Positions 7,067-58,707 of a stretch of DNA of 64,000 bases are shown in pieces; within the stretch, counting starts at the first letter, position 1, and every line of letters starts with the position of its first letter. The stretch is from Robertkochia aurantiaca (GTDB lineage Bacteria; Bacteroidota; Bacteroidia; Flavobacteriales; Flavobacteriaceae): the NCBI RefSeq assembly GCF_020166495.1, contig NZ_JAINZS010000004.1, positions 186,001-250,000 of the forward strand, given 5' to 3'. The position numbers and the translations under genes are program-made. The notes beneath the pieces were generated by a model. The model was given only the letters and a program-made list of their open reading frames with translations. It was not told where the DNA came from and did not search any database.

Positions 7067-8149
7067 TTAACCATTGATGATCTTTTCCTGGTGGTTGATC
7101 GATTCCTGGTGAATGGCTTTAAAGATCTTTAGAATAAACTCTTCGCTAAGGCCATGGTCTTCTCCTTCGAGTATCATTTTACCCAGGATCTCATTCCAAC
7201 GTTTAGACTGAAGTACAGCCACATTCCTGTTTTTCTTCAGCTGACCGATCTCATCGGCGATCTTCATACGTTTACCCAGGGTTTCGATAAGATTGTTATC
7301 GATCACATCGATCTGAGCCCTCATATTACCAAGTTTCGACTTGTACTCACTTTCTTCGTCGGTCTCCTTTCTGATCTTCAGGTCTTTCATGATCTGTACC
7401 AGCTTTTCAGGTGTCACCTGCTGAGCGGCATCACTCCAGGCATTATCAGGATCACAGTGAGTTTCAATCATGAGTCCGTCATAATTCAAATCCAGCGCTG
7501 TCTGAGAAACATCGAAGATCATATCTCTTTTTCCTGTGATATGCGAAGGATCGCAGATCAGTGGAAGATCCGGAAAACGATTCTGCAGCTCGATGGCGAT
7601 CTGCCATTCGGGAATATTCCTGTACTTGGTCTTCTCGTAGCTTGAAAACCCACGGTGAATCACTCCGAGCTTCGAAATGTCGCTTTTATATAATCTTTCT
7701 ATCCCACCCAACCAGAGCGAGAGATCCGGATTCACAGGATTTTTTAAAAGCACTACTTTATCGGTACCCTTCAGGGCATCAGCGATCTCCTGTACGATAA
7801 ACGGACTCACTGTAGAGCGGGCTCCGATCCATAACATATCGACATCGTGTTCCAGCGCCAGTTCCACATGAACCCGGTTGGCCACCTCGGTGGCTGTTTT
7901 AAGTCCTGTTTCCTTTTTTACCTGTTGCAGCCATTTCAGGCCTATGGCACCTACCCCTTCAAAATTTCCGGGACGTGTGCGGGGTTTCCAGATGCCCGCC
8001 CTGTAGTAGTTCACATCGGTGTCTTTCAGGCTTCTCGCAATATCGAGCACCTGGTCTTCGGTTTCGGCGCTGCAGGGACCTGCGATCACCAGCGGATGGT
8101 CGAGTTGGTGGTCATCTAACCAGGTTCTTAAAGCTTTGCTGTTTTCCAT
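7067..8149 (-). CDS. Bifunctional DAHP synthase / chorismate mutase
   Basis: This fusion catalyses the entry step of the shikimate pathway (PEP plus erythrose 4-phosphate to DAHP) and the branch-point step (chorismate to prephenate). Residues 1-265 are the Kdo8P/DAHP synthase (type I-beta) barrel, with GPCSAE at 24-29, KPRTRP near 55-60 and CDPSH near 199-203. Residues 274-350 are an AroQ-type helical chorismate mutase (LGNMRAQIDVIDNNLIETL). In related fusions the mutase domain also acts as the feedback sensor for prephenate/chorismate, which is known for the family and not shown here. It is the last gene of pheA-aminotransferase-tyrA-this gene. Confidence 0.95.
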   Translation of the reverse strand: MENSKALRTWLDDHQLDHPLVIAGPCSAETEDQVLDIARSLKDTDVNYYRAGIWKPRTRPGNFEGVGAIGLKWLQQVKKETGLKTATEVANRVHVELALEHDVDMLWIGARSTVSPFIVQEIADALKGTDKVVLLKNPVNPDLSLWLGGIERLYKSDISKLGVIHRGFSSYEKTKYRNIPEWQIAIELQNRFPDLPLICDPSHITGKRDMIFDVSQTALDLNYDGLMIETHCDPDNAWSDAAQQVTPEKLVQIMKDLKIRKETDEESEYKSKLGNMRAQIDVIDNNLIETLGKRMKIADEIGQLKKNRNVAVLQSKRWNEILGKMILEGEDHGLSEEFILKIFKAIHQESINHQEKIING

Positions 8150-8159
8150 AATACAAGTG

Positions 8160-9020
8160 TTAAGTCGTTTTTATTGTAATTCCGTTCAATATGTCTTTAA
8201 TACGATTGGTGTCTTCCATTTCCTGATAGATCGCCTCAAAATCATCTTCTTCCATCAGATCTCTGAACTGCCTGAGGTTATTGATATATTCATCAAGGGT
8301 CTCTATCACATTGGCCTTGTTTTGCTGAAAGATGGGAGCCCACATAGCCGGAGAACTCTTGGCCAGTCTCACCGTACTCTCAAAACCACTGCCGGCCATA
8401 TCGAATATATCCCGCTCGTTCTTTTCTTTCTCAATTACCGTCTTTCCCAGCATGAAAGAACTTATGTGCGATAGGTGAGACACATAGGCGATATGCTTGT
8501 CATGAGCACGCGGCTCCATGTAGCGTATTCGCATACCCAGTACTGAAAAGAGCTCAAGTGCTCGTTCCTGTAATTTAAAGGCCGTCTTTTCCACCTCACA
8601 GATAATATTGGTCTTTCCTTCATACAAGCCGTATATGGCCGCTCCGGGACCTGAAAACTCGGTTCCTGCTATAGGGTGAGTTGCCAGGAAGTTTCTCCGG
8701 CGTTCATGTCCGGAAACCAGGTCGCATATACCTGCTTTGGTCGAGCCGACATCGAATACCAGGCATTCGTCACCTATACGGTCGAGTATCTCGGGGATCA
8801 GCTCAAGAGCCGCGTTGACCGGAATGGCTACGATCACCATATCGGCATCCTCTAAATCCCCCATATCGCCAATGGCATCAATCAGCTGCCGGTCAAGTGC
8901 CTGAATCCCGTGCTCCGGATTCTTATCGATTCCGATCAGGCTCACATTTTTCAATCGCTGCCTGATATCCATGGCGAAAGAACCGCCTATCAGTCCTAAT
9001 CCTATCACACAAATCTTCAT
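8160..9020 (-). CDS. tyrA: Prephenate dehydrogenase
   Basis: Oxidatively decarboxylates prephenate to 4-hydroxyphenylpyruvate, the precursor of tyrosine. The N-terminal Rossmann motif GLGLIGGS (7-14) binds the dinucleotide, and THPIAGTEFSGP is the typical prephenate-binding segment. The 286-residue length is that of a stand-alone TyrA without mutase or ACT domain. The start overlaps the stop of the upstream aminotransferase by 4 bp (ATGA), and the DAHP synthase fusion follows 10 bp later, so the genes are translationally coupled. Confidence 0.94.
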   Translation of the reverse strand: MKICVIGLGLIGGSFAMDIRQRLKNVSLIGIDKNPEHGIQALDRQLIDAIGDMGDLEDADMVIVAIPVNAALELIPEILDRIGDECLVFDVGSTKAGICDLVSGHERRRNFLATHPIAGTEFSGPGAAIYGLYEGKTNIICEVEKTAFKLQERALELFSVLGMRIRYMEPRAHDKHIAYVSHLSHISSFMLGKTVIEKEKNERDIFDMAGSGFESTVRLAKSSPAMWAPIFQQNKANVIETLDEYINNLRQFRDLMEEDDFEAIYQEMEDTNRIKDILNGITIKTT

Positions 9021-10183
9021 ACGCCTACTTCCTTTTTGGTCAACCTTGATAATACTTCCCTGATCTTCCCCTCATCCACACAAAGCGAGAACCGGATATA
9101 CCCTTCTCCATTCTTTCCGAAAACCGTTCCCGGGGTGATGAATACAGAATGAGTGTAAAGAATATGATCGATATATTGCTCTGCCGGTACAGAACCTTCA
9201 GGAAGTTTTGCCCAGACAAACATACCTGTCGAATCCTGGTCATAAGTACATTTTAGTGTATCGGCTATCTGAAAAATAAGGTCCCTTCTCCGGGCATATA
9301 CCTCATTGATACTTTCATACCAGTGATCACTCAGCTCAAGAGCTTTCGCAGCCCCTTTCTGTATGCCATAGAACATTCCGCTATCCATGTTACTCTTGAT
9401 CTTAAGCACATCGCTGATATGTTCCTTACTGCCTAAAACAAAACCAACACGCCAGCCGGCCATGTTAAAGGTCTTGCTCAGTGAATTGAGCTCCAAAGCC
9501 ACCTCTCTGGCACCTTCAAACGCAAGTATGCTCAAGGGCTTGTCATTCAGCACAAAGCTATACGGATTATCATTGACCAGCAGGATATCATGTTCCTTCG
9601 CCAGGGCGATCAGTTCTTCGAACAGTTCTGCCGTAGCTGTAGCTCCGGTAGGCATGTGCGGATAGTTGAGCCACATCATCTTCACCTTTGAAAGATCACT
9701 TTTTCTAAGTGCCTCCAGATCGGGCAGCCAGCCGTTTTCCTGTTCCAGATCATAATACCTGGGAAGGGCTCCGACTATATTGGTAACCGAAGTATAGGTG
9801 GGGTATCCCGGATCAGGGATCAGCACTTCATCGCCCGGATTCAGAAAGGCAAGACTGATATGCATAATCCCTTCCTTACTTCCCATAAGGGGCAGAATCT
9901 CTCCGTTTTCATCAAGATCCACCCCAAAATGAGAACCATAGAAATCACGAACTCCCTGTCTGAGCTCAGGAATACCCTGATAACTCTGATACTGGTGGGC
10001 TCTGTCTTCCCTCACCGCTTCAATAAGGGTCTCAAGCACTTCAGGAGCAGGATCGAGATCGGGACTACCGATACCCATATTGATGACAGGCTTACCGCCG
10101 GCTATAAGTTCCCGCACCTCTTTCAATTTGGTGGAGAAGTAATACTCCTTCACTTGTTTCAATCTATCGGCTGCTTCCATCAT
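9017..10183 (-). CDS. Class I/II PLP aminotransferase, probably aromatic/prephenate-type
   Basis: A 388-residue fold-type I aminotransferase. The PLP lysine is Lys237 in SLSKTFNMAGWRVGF, and NYPHMPTGA (173-181) stands where most relatives read NYPNNPTGA. Its position between pheA and tyrA, with 4-bp overlaps on both sides, strongly suggests that it makes Phe and Tyr from their keto acids or transaminates prephenate. The substrate is inferred from context only. Two adjacent ATGs (10183, 10180) are possible starts, and the first overlaps the pheA stop. Confidence 0.9.
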   Translation of the reverse strand: MMEAADRLKQVKEYYFSTKLKEVRELIAGGKPVINMGIGSPDLDPAPEVLETLIEAVREDRAHQYQSYQGIPELRQGVRDFYGSHFGVDLDENGEILPLMGSKEGIMHISLAFLNPGDEVLIPDPGYPTYTSVTNIVGALPRYYDLEQENGWLPDLEALRKSDLSKVKMMWLNYPHMPTGATATAELFEELIALAKEHDILLVNDNPYSFVLNDKPLSILAFEGAREVALELNSLSKTFNMAGWRVGFVLGSKEHISDVLKIKSNMDSGMFYGIQKGAAKALELSDHWYESINEVYARRRDLIFQIADTLKCTYDQDSTGMFVWAKLPEGSVPAEQYIDHILYTHSVFITPGTVFGKNGEGYIRFSLCVDEGKIREVLSRLTKKEVGV

Positions 10184-11007
10184 AATTTTCCATTTATATA
10201 TTCTCCATGTATTTTAAAGTGCTCTGCCATGATCGACAGAACCGATTTTGCCTTCTGAAAATCGGCGTATTTATCGAAAGTGACATCTACAAAAAAAGCA
10301 TACTTCCAGGGGGTTTCTATTTTTGGAAGCGACTGTATCTTAGTAAGATTCAAATGGCAGTCACTCATCACGTTAAGCACGGTGGCCAGACTACCCCTTT
10401 TATGGTCCAGTTCGAATTTGAGGGACGCCTTATTTATCTGCGATTCAGGAATCACCGAATTTTTCTTTTGAACGATCACAAAACGGGTGGCGTTATTCTT
10501 GATGGTCTGAATCTCAGGCGCCAGGATGTCAAGGCCGAATATTTCAGCTGCCTTGTAACTCGCAATGGCCGCAATTCCCTTCAGGTTCTTATCACTGATA
10601 CGTCTTGCCACATCAGCTGTATCTGCATCTTCGATAAGTTTTATATGGTCGTATTGTCTCAGGAAGGCCTTACACTGCAGCAACGCCATGGGATGAGAAT
10701 ACACCTCTGAAATATCTTCTATCTGCTGACCCGGTAAGGCCATCAGGTTATGGTGTACGTTGATATAATGCTCGCCGACGATATGCAGATCATTGTCATC
10801 GATCAGCGCGTAATTGGGAATAATCGATCCGGCTATGGAGTTTTCTATAGCCATCACTCCTTTCTTTACGATTCTCTCGTTCAACTGGTCTACCAGATTG
10901 TCAAAAGACAGGCACTCCAGCAGTTCAATGGAGTCACCGAAATACTCTGATGCTGCCTGATGGTGAAAAGACCCTTTAATTCCCTGTATGGCGATTTTTT
11001 CGTTCAT
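10180..11007 (-). CDS. pheA: Prephenate dehydratase
   Basis: Converts prephenate to phenylpyruvate, the last committed step to Phe. The 275-residue protein has a periplasmic-binding-like catalytic region ending in NNATRFVIV (the conserved TRF), then an ACT domain (about 190-270). The ACT motifs that bind Phe in well-studied enzymes (GALV and ESRP) read GSLA and QSLP here, so allosteric inhibition may be altered. It is first in the operon. The ATG lies 6 bp downstream of the T-tract of a terminator hairpin, so transcription into the gene must pass an attenuator. Confidence 0.95.
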   Translation of the reverse strand: MNEKIAIQGIKGSFHHQAASEYFGDSIELLECLSFDNLVDQLNERIVKKGVMAIENSIAGSIIPNYALIDDNDLHIVGEHYINVHHNLMALPGQQIEDISEVYSHPMALLQCKAFLRQYDHIKLIEDADTADVARRISDKNLKGIAAIASYKAAEIFGLDILAPEIQTIKNNATRFVIVQKKNSVIPESQINKASLKFELDHKRGSLATVLNVMSDCHLNLTKIQSLPKIETPWKYAFFVDVTFDKYADFQKAKSVLSIMAEHFKIHGEYINGKL

Positions 11008-11013
11008 AAGTGT

Positions 11014-11042
11014 AAAAAAAAAGTCCCGATTTATATCGGGAC
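11014..11042 (-). terminator. Attenuator terminator in the pheA leader
   Basis: On the minus strand, GTCCCGAT-ATAA-ATCGGGAC is a perfect 8-bp stem with a 4-nt loop, followed by nine T. It stands immediately before the first gene of the operon and downstream of a leader peptide. That is the position of an attenuator, not of an ordinary 3' end. Confidence 0.93.
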
Positions 11043-11085
11043 CCTGTAATTCTTTTATAGTATATAATGAGCTATACCGGTCCCG
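11037..11085 (-). promoter_or_regulatory. Competing antiterminator pairing in the pheA leader
   Basis: The leader-peptide codons 22-24 contain CGGGACC (11079-11085, minus strand). It is exactly complementary to GGTCCCG (11037-11043), six bases of which form the 5' arm of the terminator stem. The two structures exclude each other. A ribosome stalled on the aromatic codons would leave CGGGACC free and favour this pairing; a ribosome reaching the stop would cover it and let the terminator form. The complementarity is seen directly; the mechanism is inferred from classical attenuators. Confidence 0.8.
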
Positions 11086-11149
11086 TTCCCCTTCTAAAAA
11101 AATAAAAGAAGAAATAATAAAGGTTCCAGATGTAGCTGTTTAAAATCAT
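11072..11149 (-). CDS. Aromatic leader peptide (Phe/Tyr attenuator)
   Basis: A 25-codon frame from ATG at 11149 to TAG at 11072, too short for most gene callers. Residues 11-18 read YYFFFYFF, eight aromatic codons in a row (TAT TAT TTC TTC TTT TAT TTT TTT). There is also a Tyr at 6 and a Trp at 8, so ten of 25 residues are aromatic. The tail is RRGTGPV. It lies between a Bacteroidota-type promoter and a perfect terminator upstream of genes making Phe and Tyr. Its function is to be translated, not to act as a protein: scarcity of Phe-tRNA or Tyr-tRNA would stall the ribosome on the run. The pattern parallels pheL of enterobacteria but has mixed Tyr/Phe specificity. Confidence 0.88.
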   Translation of the reverse strand: MILNSYIWNLYYFFFYFFRRGTGPV

Positions 11150-11173
11150 GTTTATTTTTGTACTAGCCGGGAA

Positions 11174-11203
11174 CTAAAGTAGGTATTATTTTTAAAATAC
11201 AAA
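11174..11203 (-). promoter_or_regulatory. Probable promoter of the leader-pheA operon
   Basis: On the minus strand, TTTG (11203-11200), an 18-bp spacer and TACTTTAG (11181-11174) approximate the Bacteroidota -33/-7 consensus TTTG/TAnnTTTG with one mismatch. Transcription would begin about 20 nt before the leader-peptide ATG. Confidence 0.6.
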
Positions 11204-15075: not shown

Positions 15076-17760
15076 TTAATCTGCGAGTACAGGACTCAGC
15101 CATTTTCGTGCTTCCTCAGGGGATATTCCCCGACGTTCCGCATAGCTCAGCAACTGATCTTCCTTGATCTTTCCAAGACCGAAATACCTGCTCTGCGGGT
15201 GAGCGAAATAGTAGCCCGATACCGAAGCGGCGGGCCACATGGCCAGGCTTTCTGTAAGGGTCACTCCGATTCGTTTTTCCACCTCAAGCAATTTCCAGAT
15301 GGTCTTTTTTTCAAGGTGATCCGGGCAGGCCGGATAGCCGGGTGCAGGCCTGATTCCCTTATATGATTCTTTTATAAGCTCTTCATTGGTCAGCGCTTCC
15401 TTATCGGCATAGCCCCAGATCTCCTTTCTTACTCGTTCATGAAGGTACTCAGCAAAGGCTTCAGCCAATCTGTCGGCTATGGCCTTAACCATGATCGCAT
15501 TATAGTCATCGAGACGTTTTTCATAGGTTGATGCCAGCTCTTCCACCCCAAAACCGCTGGTGACACAGAAGAGTCCTATATAATCAGTCTTTCCGCTATC
15601 GCCGGGGGCGACAAAGTCTGCCAGCGCCATGTTCGGAGCACCCTTTGTCTTCTGAGATTGCTGCCTCAGGGTGATCAGCCTGGCAAGAGCCTCTCCGTTT
15701 TCATTAAAAACCTGGATATCGTCATCATCAATCTGGTTGGCCGGAAATATGCCTACCACTCCACGAGGCTGCAGAGACCCTGCTGCGATCAGCTGCTTTA
15801 ACATCGACTTTGCATCGGCATAGAGCGATGTGGCCTGTTCTCCCACCACCTCATCATCAAAGATCGCAGGAAACTTTCCGTGAAGATCCCATGACCTGAA
15901 AAAAGGCGTCCAGTCGATATAGTCCAAAAGATCATTGATCGAAACAGTCACTTCCTTTACTCCCGTAAATGCCGGTTTGGCAGGTTCAAATTCCTCCCAG
16001 TCCAGGGAGATCTTATTGGCTCTGGCCGTTTTCAGATCATGGAATTTCTTTTCGCGCGACCGGTTCAGGTATCCTTCCCGAAGTTTGGTGTACTCATCCT
16101 GGAGTGATTGTACATAAATCTCTCTTCCTGCCTCCTTCTGCAGCAGATTACCTGCTACCGTTACCGCCCTTGAAGCATCATTCACATGCACCAGCGGCCC
16201 GGTATATTCAGGAGCGATCTTCACCGCCGTATGCGCCCTTGAAGTAGTGGCTCCCCCGATCATAAGGGGAAATTTTAATTTTTTCCTTTCCATCTCTTTG
16301 GCCAGAAAGACCATCTCGTCGAGAGAAGGGGTGATCAGTCCGCTCAGGCCGATGATATCCACGTTTTCATCAACAGCTGTCTGAAGAATCTTCTCGGGGG
16401 GCACCATTACCCCCAGATCGATCACCTCATAATTATTGCAGCCCAGCACCACACTTACAATATTCTTACCGATATCGTGTACGTCTCCCTTAACGGTTGC
16501 CATCAAAACCTTTCCTGCGGAAGAATTTGTCTGATCTTTTTCAGCTTCGATATAAGGCAATAAATGCGCCACTGCCTTTTTCATCACCCTTGCAGATTTG
16601 ACCACCTGCGGAAGAAACATCTTTCCGCTTCCGAAAAGATCTCCCACCACATTCATACCTGTCATCAAAGGCCCTTCTATGACCTCAATGGGGCGGTCTG
16701 CCTGCACCCTGGCCTCCTCGACGTCGACAACAATAAATTCATCAATACCTTTGACCAGTGCATGAGTGATACGCTCCTGAAGTGGATCGTTTCTCCATTC
16801 AAGATTTGATCGACTGCTTGTTTTACCATTCCCTTTTACCTTCTCTGCATATTCCAGGAGTCTTTCTGTAGCATCATCACTCCGGTCAAGCAGAACATCT
16901 TCCACATAATTCAGTAATTCAGCAGGAATCTCATCATATACCTCAAGCATTTGCGGGTTCACGATCCCCATAGTCATACCATGCTGAATCCCGTGGTAAA
17001 GGAAGGCAGAATGCATAGCTTCACGAACCGTATTATTACCCCTGAACGAAAATGACACGTTACTCACCCCTCCGCTCACATGGGCGCAAGGAAGGTTTTC
17101 ACGTATCCATTTTGTGGCCTTGAAAAAGTCAACCGCATTACTACGGTGCTCTTCCATACCGGTAGCCACGGGAAAAACGTTCGGGTCAAAGATGATATCT
17201 TCAGCAGGAAAGTTTACCTTGTTCACCAACACCTCATACGATCTTTTACAGATCTCTATGCGTCTTTCATAGGTATCGGCCTGACCCTTCTCATCAAAGG
17301 CCATAACGATAACTGCAGCTCCATAACGCTTGATCTTCTTAGCCTGAGCGATAAAAACCTCTTCTCCTTCCTTCAGGCTGATGGAATTCACCACACCCTT
17401 TCCCTGGATTACTTTCAGACCCGCCTCAATGATCTCCCATTTCGAACTGTCGATCATCACCGGCACCCTGGCAATATCAGGTTCAGCGGCGATCAGGTTA
17501 AGAAAGGTTGTCATAGCTGCGACTCCGTCGATCATCCCCTCATCCATATTCACATCGATGATCTGGGCTCCTCCTTCGACCTGTGCCCTGGCTATTTCCA
17601 CAGCAGCTTCAAAATCGCCTTCCCTGATGAGATTGAGAAATTTTCTGGACCCTGTAACATTGGTTCGTTCGCCTATGTTCACAAAGTTCGTGTCGGCAGT
17701 GATCACCAGAGGCTCCAGTCCTGAGAGCATCAGGCTCCTATCACATAGTGCTTTCTTCAT
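15076..17760 (-). CDS. metH: Methionine synthase, C-terminal polypeptide (folate, B12 and activation domains)
   Basis: The 894-residue half of a split cobalamin-dependent methionine synthase. In order, it has a pterin-binding barrel (about 20-270, [14 protein letters not shown]), a helical cap, and a B12-binding Rossmann domain with DVHDIGKN, where His428 is the lower axial cobalt ligand. The C-terminal SAM-dependent reactivation domain (about 570-890) contains [12 protein letters not shown]. The homocysteine-binding half is the separate gene upstream, whose stop overlaps this start by 4 bp, so equimolar synthesis is likely. Together the two match one full-length MetH. Confidence 0.96.
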
Positions 17761-18758
17761 GCAGTCTGAGTAATTTTCCTGGGTTCGTATTGAGCTGCCA
17801 CCTCGGCAATTTTCCGAATGTGTTCAGGAGTCGTGCCGCAGCATCCTCCCACTATATTCACGATACCTTCTTTCAGGTATGATTCAAGCAGGTCTTGCAT
17901 GGCTTGCGGTGTTTGATCATACTCCCCAAAATGATTGGGCAGTCCGGCGTTAGGATAAGCAGAAACATAGAACCTGCTTTTCTGAGCAAGCCGCTTCACG
18001 TATGGCAGTAACTGATCTGCACCCAAGGCGCAGTTAAACCCTACGCTGAGAAGATCAATATGGGAAATGCTGATAAGAAAAGCTTCTGCTGTCTGACCTG
18101 AGAGTGTTCTTCCGGAAGCATCGGTGATAGTTCCACTCACCATGACGGGCACATCAACCTCCTTTTCTTCTTTCACCTCTTCTATGGCAAAAAGCGCTGC
18201 TTTGGCATTGAGGGTATCGAAAACCGTCTCTACCAAAAGGAGATCAACACCGCCATCGATAAGACCTGTCACCTGTTGCTTATAAGCTGCTTTCAGACGA
18301 TCGAAATCGATGGCCCTGAATCCCGGGTTATTCACGTCTGGCGACATACTGGCCGTTTTATTGGTGGGGCCCATAGCCCCTGCCACGAATCGCGGCCTCT
18401 GCGGATCAGCTTCGGTAAATTTTCGAGCTGCTTCTGCAGCAATGCGTGCAGAAGCGAGATTTATATCATAAACGGCTTCTTCCATTCCATAGTCGGCCAT
18501 ACCCACGGTGGTAGAAGAAAAAGTATTGGTCTCAATAATGTCTGCACCCGCTTCGAGGTATGCCTCGTGAATCTCACCGATCGCCTTGGGCTGCGTTAGC
18601 GAAAGCAGGTCGTTATTGCCTTGCTGCGGAAGGGGTGCATTCCTGAAAAGCCTTCCTCTGAAATCTTCCTCCTTAAATTTATAACGCTGTAACATAGTAC
18701 CCATCGCACCGTCAAGCACCAGGATTCTGCGGTCTAATTCCTCTCTGATATTCTTCAT
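17757..18758 (-). CDS. metH: Methionine synthase, N-terminal polypeptide (homocysteine S-methyltransferase domain)
   Basis: The zinc-dependent homocysteine barrel of MetH as a free protein of 333 residues. [11 protein letters not shown] near the N-terminus is the family signature. Zinc ligands are the Cys in VGFNCALG and the CysCys pair in [13 protein letters not shown] chose the ATG at 18758 because it gives a normal N-terminus and lies outside a hairpin; an in-frame ATG at 18791 would add eleven residues and sits inside that hairpin (18775-18804). Expression is controlled by the SAM-I riboswitch upstream. Confidence 0.93.
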
Positions 18759-18774
18759 ATTGTTTACGTTTCTC

Positions 18775-18804
18775 CGGTCGTACTGACGCATGCGAAAGCG
18801 ACCG
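18775..18804 (-). promoter_or_regulatory. Hairpin just before the metH start
   Basis: CGGTCG and CGACCG (6 bp) enclose an inner self-complementary CGCATGCG, giving a hairpin that ends 16 nt before the chosen ATG and masks an alternative ATG (18791). No T-tract follows, so it would act on translation or as part of the riboswitch expression platform, if at all. Confidence 0.45.
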
Positions 18805-18861
18805 TGAATTCTTTACACGATGGTGTTATCAGGCTAGAGGAAAAAGGGAAAAAGAGTAATC

Positions 18862-18958
18862 GTTATCTTTCCTTTTAGGGTAGAATGTAGCACCTTCTCT
18901 GAAGTCAGAGGGTTGCTAAGGTTTCAACGGGTCTAGTCCCTTCACCTTTCTTGATAAC
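18862..18958 (-). ncRNA. SAM-I (S-box) riboswitch upstream of metH-metF
   Basis: The minus-strand RNA has P1 GTTATC/GATAAC, the AAGAAAGGTG kink-turn side, ACCCGTTGAAACCTTAGC AACC, AAGGTGCTAC and ACCC, which are the conserved core of the S-box aptamer in the correct order over 97 nt. It binds SAM and lowers expression of methionine genes. Downstream, TGATAACAC (18811-18840 region) is a 9-bp perfect complement of the P1 5' strand with its flank (GTGTTATCA), longer than P1 itself, and may be the competing off-ligand partner. Confidence 0.96.
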
Positions 18959-18984
18959 ACGTAATAATGTAATGAACTTCGCTG

Positions 18985-28248: not shown

Positions 28249-28357
28249 ATTACAAGCACGAAAAAGGCGTTGACAACACTGTGAAAAAAGTGATGTCGTT
28301 AATTGAAAATGTTAAAAAGAAAGGCTGATAGCCATTTTGAAAAAAATGGACAGGCAT

Positions 28358-28455
28358 GTTATCTATCCCTTTACGGGTAGAATGTAGCACCTTCTCTGCA
28401 GACAGAGGGTTGCTAAGGCTTCAACGGGTCTATTCCCTACACCTTTCTTGATAAC
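28358..28455 (-). ncRNA. SAM-I (S-box) riboswitch upstream of the metX-thrA fusion
   Basis: Second S-box of the window, 98 nt, with the same P1 (GTTATC/GATAAC) and core as the metH copy; variable positions differ, and the P3/P4 loops carry different bases (TCTGTCTGCAGA against TCTGACTTCAGA). Downstream are a CCATTTT/AAAATGG hairpin (28332-28349) and an overlapping GGCT-ATC-AGCC stem followed by TTTCTTTTT. These could be alternative structures of an expression platform. Confidence 0.96.
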
Positions 28456-28483
28456 AATTCAATAAGTGCCTGAACGTGGAAAT

Positions 28484-29821: not shown

Positions 29822-29894
29822 GATTGACGAGACCCGTCTAAAGAAGTTTTCACTGCTTTAGCGCTTTTTTTACGAGGTGGCAATCAGTCAAATC
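29822..29894 (-). ncRNA. Structured metK leader RNA, candidate cis-regulatory element
   Basis: The minus-strand RNA folds into nested helices. P1 is GATTTGAC/GTCAATC with one bulged T (29887-29894 with 29822-29828). P2 is ACCTCGT/ACGGGT with one bulged T (29872-29878 with 29832-29837). P3 is CTAAAG/CTTTAG (29856-29861 with 29838-29843), and after a C/T mismatch AGT/ACT is closed by a GAAA tetraloop. An A-rich asymmetric bulge of ten nt lies 5' between P2 and P3. The metK ATG follows 28 nt after the element. It lacks the S-box core. No ligand or known family is assigned. Confidence 0.6.
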
Positions 29895-29913
29895 TGTCCT
29901 CAAATTTCGATTG

Positions 29914-58017: not shown

Positions 58018-58707
58018 TCAATCAAAGCAGTAATAACATGGCTTCTTACCAAAGGTGTAGGTCAGGGTCACCCCGGTAAATACGAACCAGTCATCACTAA
58101 AACTATTTCCAAACCTCACAGGATTTATTCCCACATCCTGTGTACCCGGATCACTCCCATCGAGATTATTGGTGAAGGTATACCTGGCACCAATCTCTCC
58201 TCCGAGAACAAAACGCGTTCCGATTTTCCCTTTCACACCCAGGGCCATCGGGATCGCAAATGTACTTTTATTTCTATTATGCTCGGCTGTATTGCCTTCA
58301 AAATAGAGATCGTTGTAGCGCACATAAGAAACCCCACCATAGATATAAGGAGTAACCGGATTACTGAAGTCATGAAGATTAAATTCTACAAAATTAAACT
58401 CCATTCCAACCGACACCTCCAGCAGGTCGTTCTCAAAGCTAAAGTCACGCTGTTGCCGGGCAGAGTTCTCTGAATCGGCATCATCTGACTGTAACTGCGT
58501 ATAGATTACGCTGAGCCTGTAAGAGTAGCGGTTGCTGAGATTCCATTTTGCCAGGCCACCAATGGCCACACTGTTCGGGTTTATATAAGTGGTCGGACCG
58601 ACATCACCGATATAGTTACTACCCCCTGCAAACGCACCTATTTCATAGGTTTGGGCAGAGGCGAAGCAGGTTAAGAACAGTAGTATGGCAAAAAGTTTGA
58701 TTCTCAT
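58018..58707 (-). CDS. DUF6089 outer-membrane beta-barrel protein
   Basis: A 229-residue exported protein from the ATG at 58707, with a signal peptide ending at FASAQ. EIGAFAGGSNYIGDVGP opens an eight-strand-like barrel, and the C-terminus is KKPCYYCFD, with two Cys. The family is typical of Bacteroidota at this location. The alternative start six codons upstream is a TTG within the promoter box, so it is rejected. Function unknown. Confidence 0.85.
   Translation of the reverse strand: MRIKLFAILLFLTCFASAQTYEIGAFAGGSNYIGDVGPTTYINPNSVAIGGLAKWNLSNRYSYRLSVIYTQLQSDDADSENSARQQRDFSFENDLLEVSVGMEFNFVEFNLHDFSNPVTPYIYGGVSYVRYNDLYFEGNTAEHNRNKSTFAIPMALGVKGKIGTRFVLGGEIGARYTFTNNLDGSDPGTQDVGINPVRFGNSFSDDWFVFTGVTLTYTFGKKPCYYCFD

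Follow-up and report, generated by a model that had tools for sequence, protein, structure and literature searches.

A candidate leader-peptide attenuator with mixed Phe and Tyr codons upstream of pheA in Bacteroidia

The region upstream of pheA in the 64-kb stretch of Robertkochia aurantiaca DNA analysed here (the window) most probably carries a classical ribosome-mediated transcription attenuator, a reading to which sequence comparison and a folding model lead us to give a probability of about 0.93. It combines an open reading frame (ORF) rich in codons for the amino acids of the pathway, an intrinsic terminator, a mutually exclusive antiterminator that covaries between genera, and a stall geometry that fits in the window and in 45 of 49 leaders. 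In the proposed mechanism, RNA polymerase would start about 20 nt before the leader ATG, with transcription expected to begin near 11169, and a trailing ribosome would translate the 25-codon leader. When charged tRNA-Phe or tRNA-Tyr (perhaps also tRNA-Trp) is scarce, the ribosome would stall at the aromatic codons with its leading edge just short of CGGGACC, leaving this strand free for GGTCCCG. The pairing of the two would remove the 5' arm of the terminator, and polymerase would read into the pheA-aminotransferase-tyrA-DAHP synthase genes. With charged tRNAs at hand, the ribosome would reach the stop codon, which ends 14 nt past the CGGGACC start, and would cover CGGGACC, so that the terminator forms. 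We infer on these grounds that ribosomes stall at the leader and that read-through occurs in vivo.

The leader region and its operon

A sequence-only reading of this DNA had proposed a 25-codon frame with the run YYFFFYFF, a nine-T terminator 6 bp before pheA and a complementarity between CGGGACC and the terminator; sequence inspection located every one of these parts on the minus strand upstream of pheA (Table 1). The region is bounded by pheA and by a divergent ORF (11318, +) in which features of an ABC-transporter ATPase were recognized by eye. Downstream, pheA and the genes for an aminotransferase, TyrA and a DAHP synthase-chorismate mutase fusion form one close-packed run through which both end products are made, and Pfam confirmed the gene content that had been named from the sequence.

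Table 1 Features of the leader region and the downstream operon in the window
Feature	Position	Strand	Basis or remark
-33 promoter element TTTG	11203-11200	-	Sequence; TTTG or similar here in many relatives, uncounted
-7 promoter box TACTTTAG	11181-11174	-	18 nt spacer from TTTG; one mismatch to TAnnTTTG
Leader peptide ORF MILNSYIWNLYYFFFYFFRRGTGPV, 25 codons	11149 (ATG) to TAG 11074-11072	-	
Segment 1, 5' side of predicted 1:2 helix, within codons 5-10	11122..11136	-	
Tyr6, further aromatic upstream of octet	11134-11132	-	
Trp8, further aromatic upstream of octet	11128-11126	-	
Control codons 11-18, Tyr Tyr Phe Phe Phe Tyr Phe Phe (YYFFFYFF)	11119-11096	-	
Antiterminator strand CGGGACC (segment 2), codons 22-24	11085-11079	-	
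3' side of predicted 1:2 helix	11071..11084	-	Overlaps antiterminator strand and leader stop codon
GGTCCCG in terminator 5' arm (segment 3)	11043-11037	-	Partner of CGGGACC
Intrinsic terminator	11014..11045	-	Stem 11045-11035 / 11030-11020, loop ATAA, 8-bp core stem
Terminator run of nine T	11022-11014	-	Six bases before pheA ATG at 11007
pheA, prephenate dehydratase	11007-10180	-	Pfam PDT; ACT domain match below Pfam's cut-off
Aminotransferase class I/II	9017..10183	-	Pfam
tyrA, prephenate dehydrogenase	8160..9020	-	Pfam PDH_N and PDH_C
DAHP synthase fused to chorismate mutase type II	7067..8149	-	Pfam

Eight consecutive Phe/Tyr codons (TWY x8) occur only twice in the 3.43-Mb genome when both strands are searched, and the leader is the sole ATG frame of 8-60 aa in the 64-kb window with at least eight aromatic residues in ten. 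The other TWY x8 occurrence (L208) was dropped as a leader, being antisense to a 96-aa ORF. A frame at 58260 (+) with seven aromatic residues in ten was likewise set aside; it lies antisense within a 235-aa ORF.

The promoter-like boxes suggested for the region are of Bacteroidetes type: the putative promoter matches the -7 box of Bacteroidetes, and a scan for sigma-70 hexamers returned two matches in the region, neither of them at the leader promoter and not in excess of the 2.8 seen in shuffles. TAnnTT[AT]G was present at most 60 nt ahead of the leader ATG in 38 of 42 leaders, as compared with 3 of 42 when the sequence was reversed. As candidate promoter elements, these boxes fit the sigma-A -7 consensus, which the accessible text of one study gives as TAnnTTTG (PMC9723704).

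The RNA of positions 11160-11005 folds 5.1 sd better than its own shuffles (z -5.1). Such a structured region would also be expected if a riboswitch or T-box drove the terminator and the ORF were incidental, and SAM riboswitches do occur elsewhere in the window; however, none matched at the leader at the gathering threshold, a permissive scan found no T-box (RF00230), and what is conserved is codon content in a single frame. We therefore regard such an element as very improbable. The window as a whole gave no match at the gathering threshold to the T-box or to Bacteroid-trp RNA (RF01692). Among 51 leaders, aromatic content averages 7.7 of 10 in the ORF frame as compared with 2.2 and 2.6 in the other frames, and the frame averaging 2.6 carries stops in 30 of the 51.

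Several other regulatory elements were observed in the same genome. Three riboswitches lie in the window, two of the SAM (S box) class and one SAM-II (18860-18960, 28356-28457, 29848-29907 (-)), and two of the three, of different classes, are no more than 1.5 kb apart. The riboswitch at 18860-18960 precedes ORFs 17757-18791 and 15076-17760, which by eye resemble a split methionine synthase. Upstream of a hisG domain match (L204), a histidine leader, MRNNNVHHHHIHYSAQAR, is followed by a GC stem and a T run, and upstream of a chorismate-binding, trpE-like gene (L206) a short ORF, MKVTILNNWWWSNLRLTS, is followed by a stem and a T run just before the gene; at both loci the stem and T run were recognized by eye. 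Judged by this arrangement, the two loci are likely a his and a trp attenuator of the source genome.

Conservation of the leader and its pairing

A leader was scored when an ATG-start frame upstream of pheA held at least five aromatic residues in ten. A pheA match was found in 45 of 60 genomes, the source genome included, which leaves 44 pheA-bearing relatives. An aromatic-rich leader precedes pheA in 39 of these (32 of 34 same-family and 7 of 10 same-order relatives), with at least six aromatic residues in ten in 38. Comparison of the regions upstream of pheA thus bears out the expectation that the frame, the aromatic run and the terminator would be conserved in relatives. A further 80 named loci, mostly from Flavobacterium and with at least two repeating genomes of the 60-genome set, gave a leader in 79; one locus (L067) has only 37 nt upstream, so the presence of a leader there cannot be judged, and another (L110) has no terminator by the scan rule. 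In a sample of the class, 28 of 109 genomes match PF00800, 24 of them in other orders, and a leader was present in 17 of these 24 (15 with at least six aromatic residues in ten). The seven others include at least one genome (G360) with all four operon genes. Outside the class, where the 29 loci examined had the best Pfam domain scores and hence are no random sample, none reaches six aromatic residues in ten, one (L139) reaches five and the rest have at most four; scanning from the Pfam domain and from the open-frame start gave the same outcome.

Among the relatives without a leader, three (G027, G040 and G053) have no operon gene other than pheA in the stretch examined, and a fourth (G047) lacks the leader despite having pheA, tyrA and DAHP synthase. 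Another (G017; locus L185, pheA at 2249) has the full operon and no leader, and direct repeats of ~110 nt were seen by eye upstream. Judged from this distribution, much of the class Bacteroidia appears to have inherited the leader from a common ancestor.

Tandem arrangements were observed as well. A distant same-order genome (G059; L184, 650-1080) carries, ahead of pheA, two leader/terminator units in tandem that lack Tyr codons, and its operon has no tyrA in the stretch examined. In a genome of another order (G130; L202, pheA at 714), two tandem Phe/Tyr leaders lie upstream of pheA, each followed by a stem that by eye is terminator-like.

By the strict rule, 49 of 51 leaders have a terminator, and the remaining two (L171 and L172) fold an imperfect stem before the T run. 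The strands of the predicted 2:3 pairing differ between genera and yet pair with each other, as in CGGGAC/GTCCCG, CGAGAC/GTCTCG, AGGACT/AGTCCT, AAGGCT/AGCCTT, GAGCGGTC/GACCGCTC and GGCAGGA/TCCTGCC. We compared each antiterminator strand with its own terminator arm and with swapped partners in 49 of 53 loci, after dropping two without a leader and two, L172 among them, without a terminator by the strict rule. As antiterminator strand we took whichever segment of a 32-nt stretch paired best, and the swapped-partner control picks in the same way. The pairing score was 17.51 with the own partner and 12.84 with swapped partners (sd 0.40, maximum 14.49), and none of 20000 swaps reached the own score. 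The same held for the 30 loci of Flavobacteriaceae alone (17.65 against 13.63; 0/20000) and for the 19 loci outside that family (17.29 against 12.87; 0/20000). The compensatory changes in the CGGGACC pairing that had been suggested as a check are accordingly present across genera. Among the 49 partners, the own arm ranks first or ties for first in just 14 of 49 loci (median rank 2), because related genera have these sequences in common. In the ten closest relatives the 2:3 pairing is nearly uniform and shows no covariation signal.

In the same ten close relatives, 93.6% of the cells of the predicted 1:2 helix are paired and 7 cells changed on both sides. Its covariation is 0.301, as compared with 0.185 after shuffling and no more than 0.079 for slid versions; this is supportive only, because the alignment itself had served to derive the structure. 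In five leaders (L011, L016, L019, L022 and L024) we also observed a U-G wobble in the terminator stem where the antiterminator of the same leader offers an A; this difference between wobble and Watson-Crick pairing may tune the balance of terminator and antiterminator.

The pattern of conservation also bears on whether the ORF simply encodes a small functional peptide, for example a membrane peptide, next to an ordinary terminator. An aromatic-rich peptide could indeed associate with the membrane, and the aromatic character of this one has been conserved; however, the sequence outside the aromatic cluster largely turns over between genera while the pairing with the terminator is kept, and this pairing involves the last codons of the peptide or the bases after them. 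In addition, the T run in the window ends just six bases before pheA, which places the terminator inside the pheA transcript. Taken together, these points make a functional peptide highly unlikely.

Ribosome position and the amino acids sensed

The distance from the last aromatic codon to the antiterminator strand is narrowly distributed (median 11 nt, 10th-90th percentile 8-12), and 11 nt is about the reach of a stalled ribosome. We folded the leaders with a ribosome footprint masked, which took in the 18 nt before the A-site codon and 12 nt counted from its first base (values of our own choosing); L172 was excluded here too. For the window leader, the modelled probability of the 2:3 pairing, P(2:3), which is raised by the best-of-32-nt choice of the strand, is 0.99 with the A site at codons 1 to 18, 0.62 at codon 19 and 0.00 from codon 20. 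Across 49 leaders the mean P is 0.92 on the aromatic codons and then 0.55, 0.09 and 0.01 one to three codons later, and 45 of the 49 switch as expected in the model, with 2:3 paired on the aromatic codons and lost three codons past the last; no switch is seen in the model for the other four (L026, L160, L161 and L166). Once the stop codon occupies the A site, 2:3 is predicted to stay off in 43 of 49 leaders and not in the remaining 6. The leader of a same-genus relative (L004) has a weak antiterminator, with a modelled P of about 0.2. Both the narrow spacing and the footprint model thus bear out the earlier remark that the parts stand in the order and spacing of a classical attenuator. For the window leader without any ribosome, 2:3 still forms in the model with P 0.99. 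The E. coli trp attenuator differs in this respect, in that termination takes the place of 2:3 pairing when no ribosome is present.

The 51 leaders, from about 50 genera, contain 260 Phe, 173 Tyr and 28 Trp codons. One locus per genus was intended, and the number of genera is approximate because two loci (L172 and L180) share a genus and two others (L043 and L037) lack a genus number; of the G130 tandem leaders, the upstream copy entered these counts and the downstream copy the swapped-partner test. Phe codons are present in 51, Tyr codons in 50 and Trp codons in 27 of the 51 leaders. Tyr makes up 40% of the Phe and Tyr codons in leaders and 44% in the window's long ORFs; Tyr has thus not been purged, and the leader seems to accept either codon in place of the other. 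The operon behind the lone Tyr-free leader (L124) has no tyrA in the stretch examined; the operons of G016, G061 and G285 likewise have none in the stretch examined, yet their leaders retain Tyr codons.

Phe and Tyr codons both sit where a stall antiterminates in the folding model, and we infer that a shortage of Phe and a shortage of Tyr would each open the attenuator. The attenuator may then act as a gate that opens when any one of the charged tRNAs for Phe, Tyr (and possibly Trp) runs short, acting on the common first enzyme and on both branches, ancestral to Bacteroidia, kept through the turnover of the pairing sequences and doubled in tandem in two distant lineages, one of them Tyr-free. 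We put this fuller picture forward tentatively, at somewhat under even odds. It is also conceivable, if rather unlikely, that the same attenuator is effectively a sensor of Phe, opened by Phe limitation only, with Tyr codons tolerated as filler, since a single change separates TAY from TTY. Phe codons do exceed Tyr codons, and one of the 51 leaders lacks Tyr altogether; moreover, the Phe-Tyr-Phe leader aroR of C. glutamicum is reported, in the accessible part of its description, to respond to Phe and not to Tyr (PMC11802643), so a mixed Phe-Tyr leader need not respond to Tyr. On the other hand, Tyr occurs in nearly every leader at a share close to that in long ORFs, its codons sit where a stall leaves the antiterminator free, and the operon yields both end products, all of which argue for a response to both amino acids. 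With its mixture of Phe and Tyr codons, this leader allows a direct test of whether two amino acids can be read by a single leader.

Comparison with known systems

The diverse leaders across the orders of Bacteroidia and the matched pairing changes in about 50 genera suggest that this mechanism governs a central pathway there, and the collection of leaders constitutes a ready data set. In its accessible portion, a 2010 survey recorded no demonstrated leader-peptide system beyond Proteobacteria and Actinobacteria and put forward candidates from Firmicutes (PMC2965389). We found no description of a mixed Phe/Tyr pheA leader in Bacteroidetes in the open-licence literature, which was the scope of our search, and an earlier prediction of a pheA attenuator may exist in subscription journals. 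Lopatovskaya 2010 and Vitreschak 2004 are said to be earlier work on attenuation.

The closest analogue by gene is the E. coli pheL attenuator (RF01859, Phe_leader), in which a leader with control codons and a terminator switch likewise precede the prephenate dehydratase gene. The E. coli leader has Phe codons but lacks those for Tyr, and a single gene follows it, whereas the leader described here mixes Phe and Tyr, often with Trp in its relatives, and stands before a four-gene operon. Phe_leader was the best among the 17 Rfam matches listed, at 26.8 bits against a cut-off of 55. The E. coli pheA attenuator is controlled by charged tRNA-Phe, as stated in the accessible part of the aroR description, and aroR itself resembles the present leader in placing Phe-Tyr-Phe upstream of the aroF DAHP synthase operon (PMC11802643). 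It belongs to another phylum, and its Phe-Tyr-Phe stands against ten aromatic codons here. In the accessible text on Bacteroid-trp RNA (RF01692), this is, like the present leader, a cis-regulatory RNA candidate of Bacteroidetes (PMC2864571). Going by its name, we take it to concern the trp operon.

The nearest precedent comes from F. psychrophilum, in the same family. The accessible text of that study describes a structured 5' element upstream of the same gene, pheA, present in other Flavobacteriaceae genera and without an Rfam hit, and reports structured 5' regions, together with strong clues that leader peptides attenuate amino-acid operons (PMC9723704). This account anticipates the core of our finding, as far as its accessible text goes, and the overlap may be larger in the remainder of the paper. 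What is added here to that text is the leader sequence, its codon content, the antiterminator and a range beyond the family. Taken together, the mechanism is a known one, and the putative pheA leader is partly anticipated by earlier work and well supported by sequence comparison.
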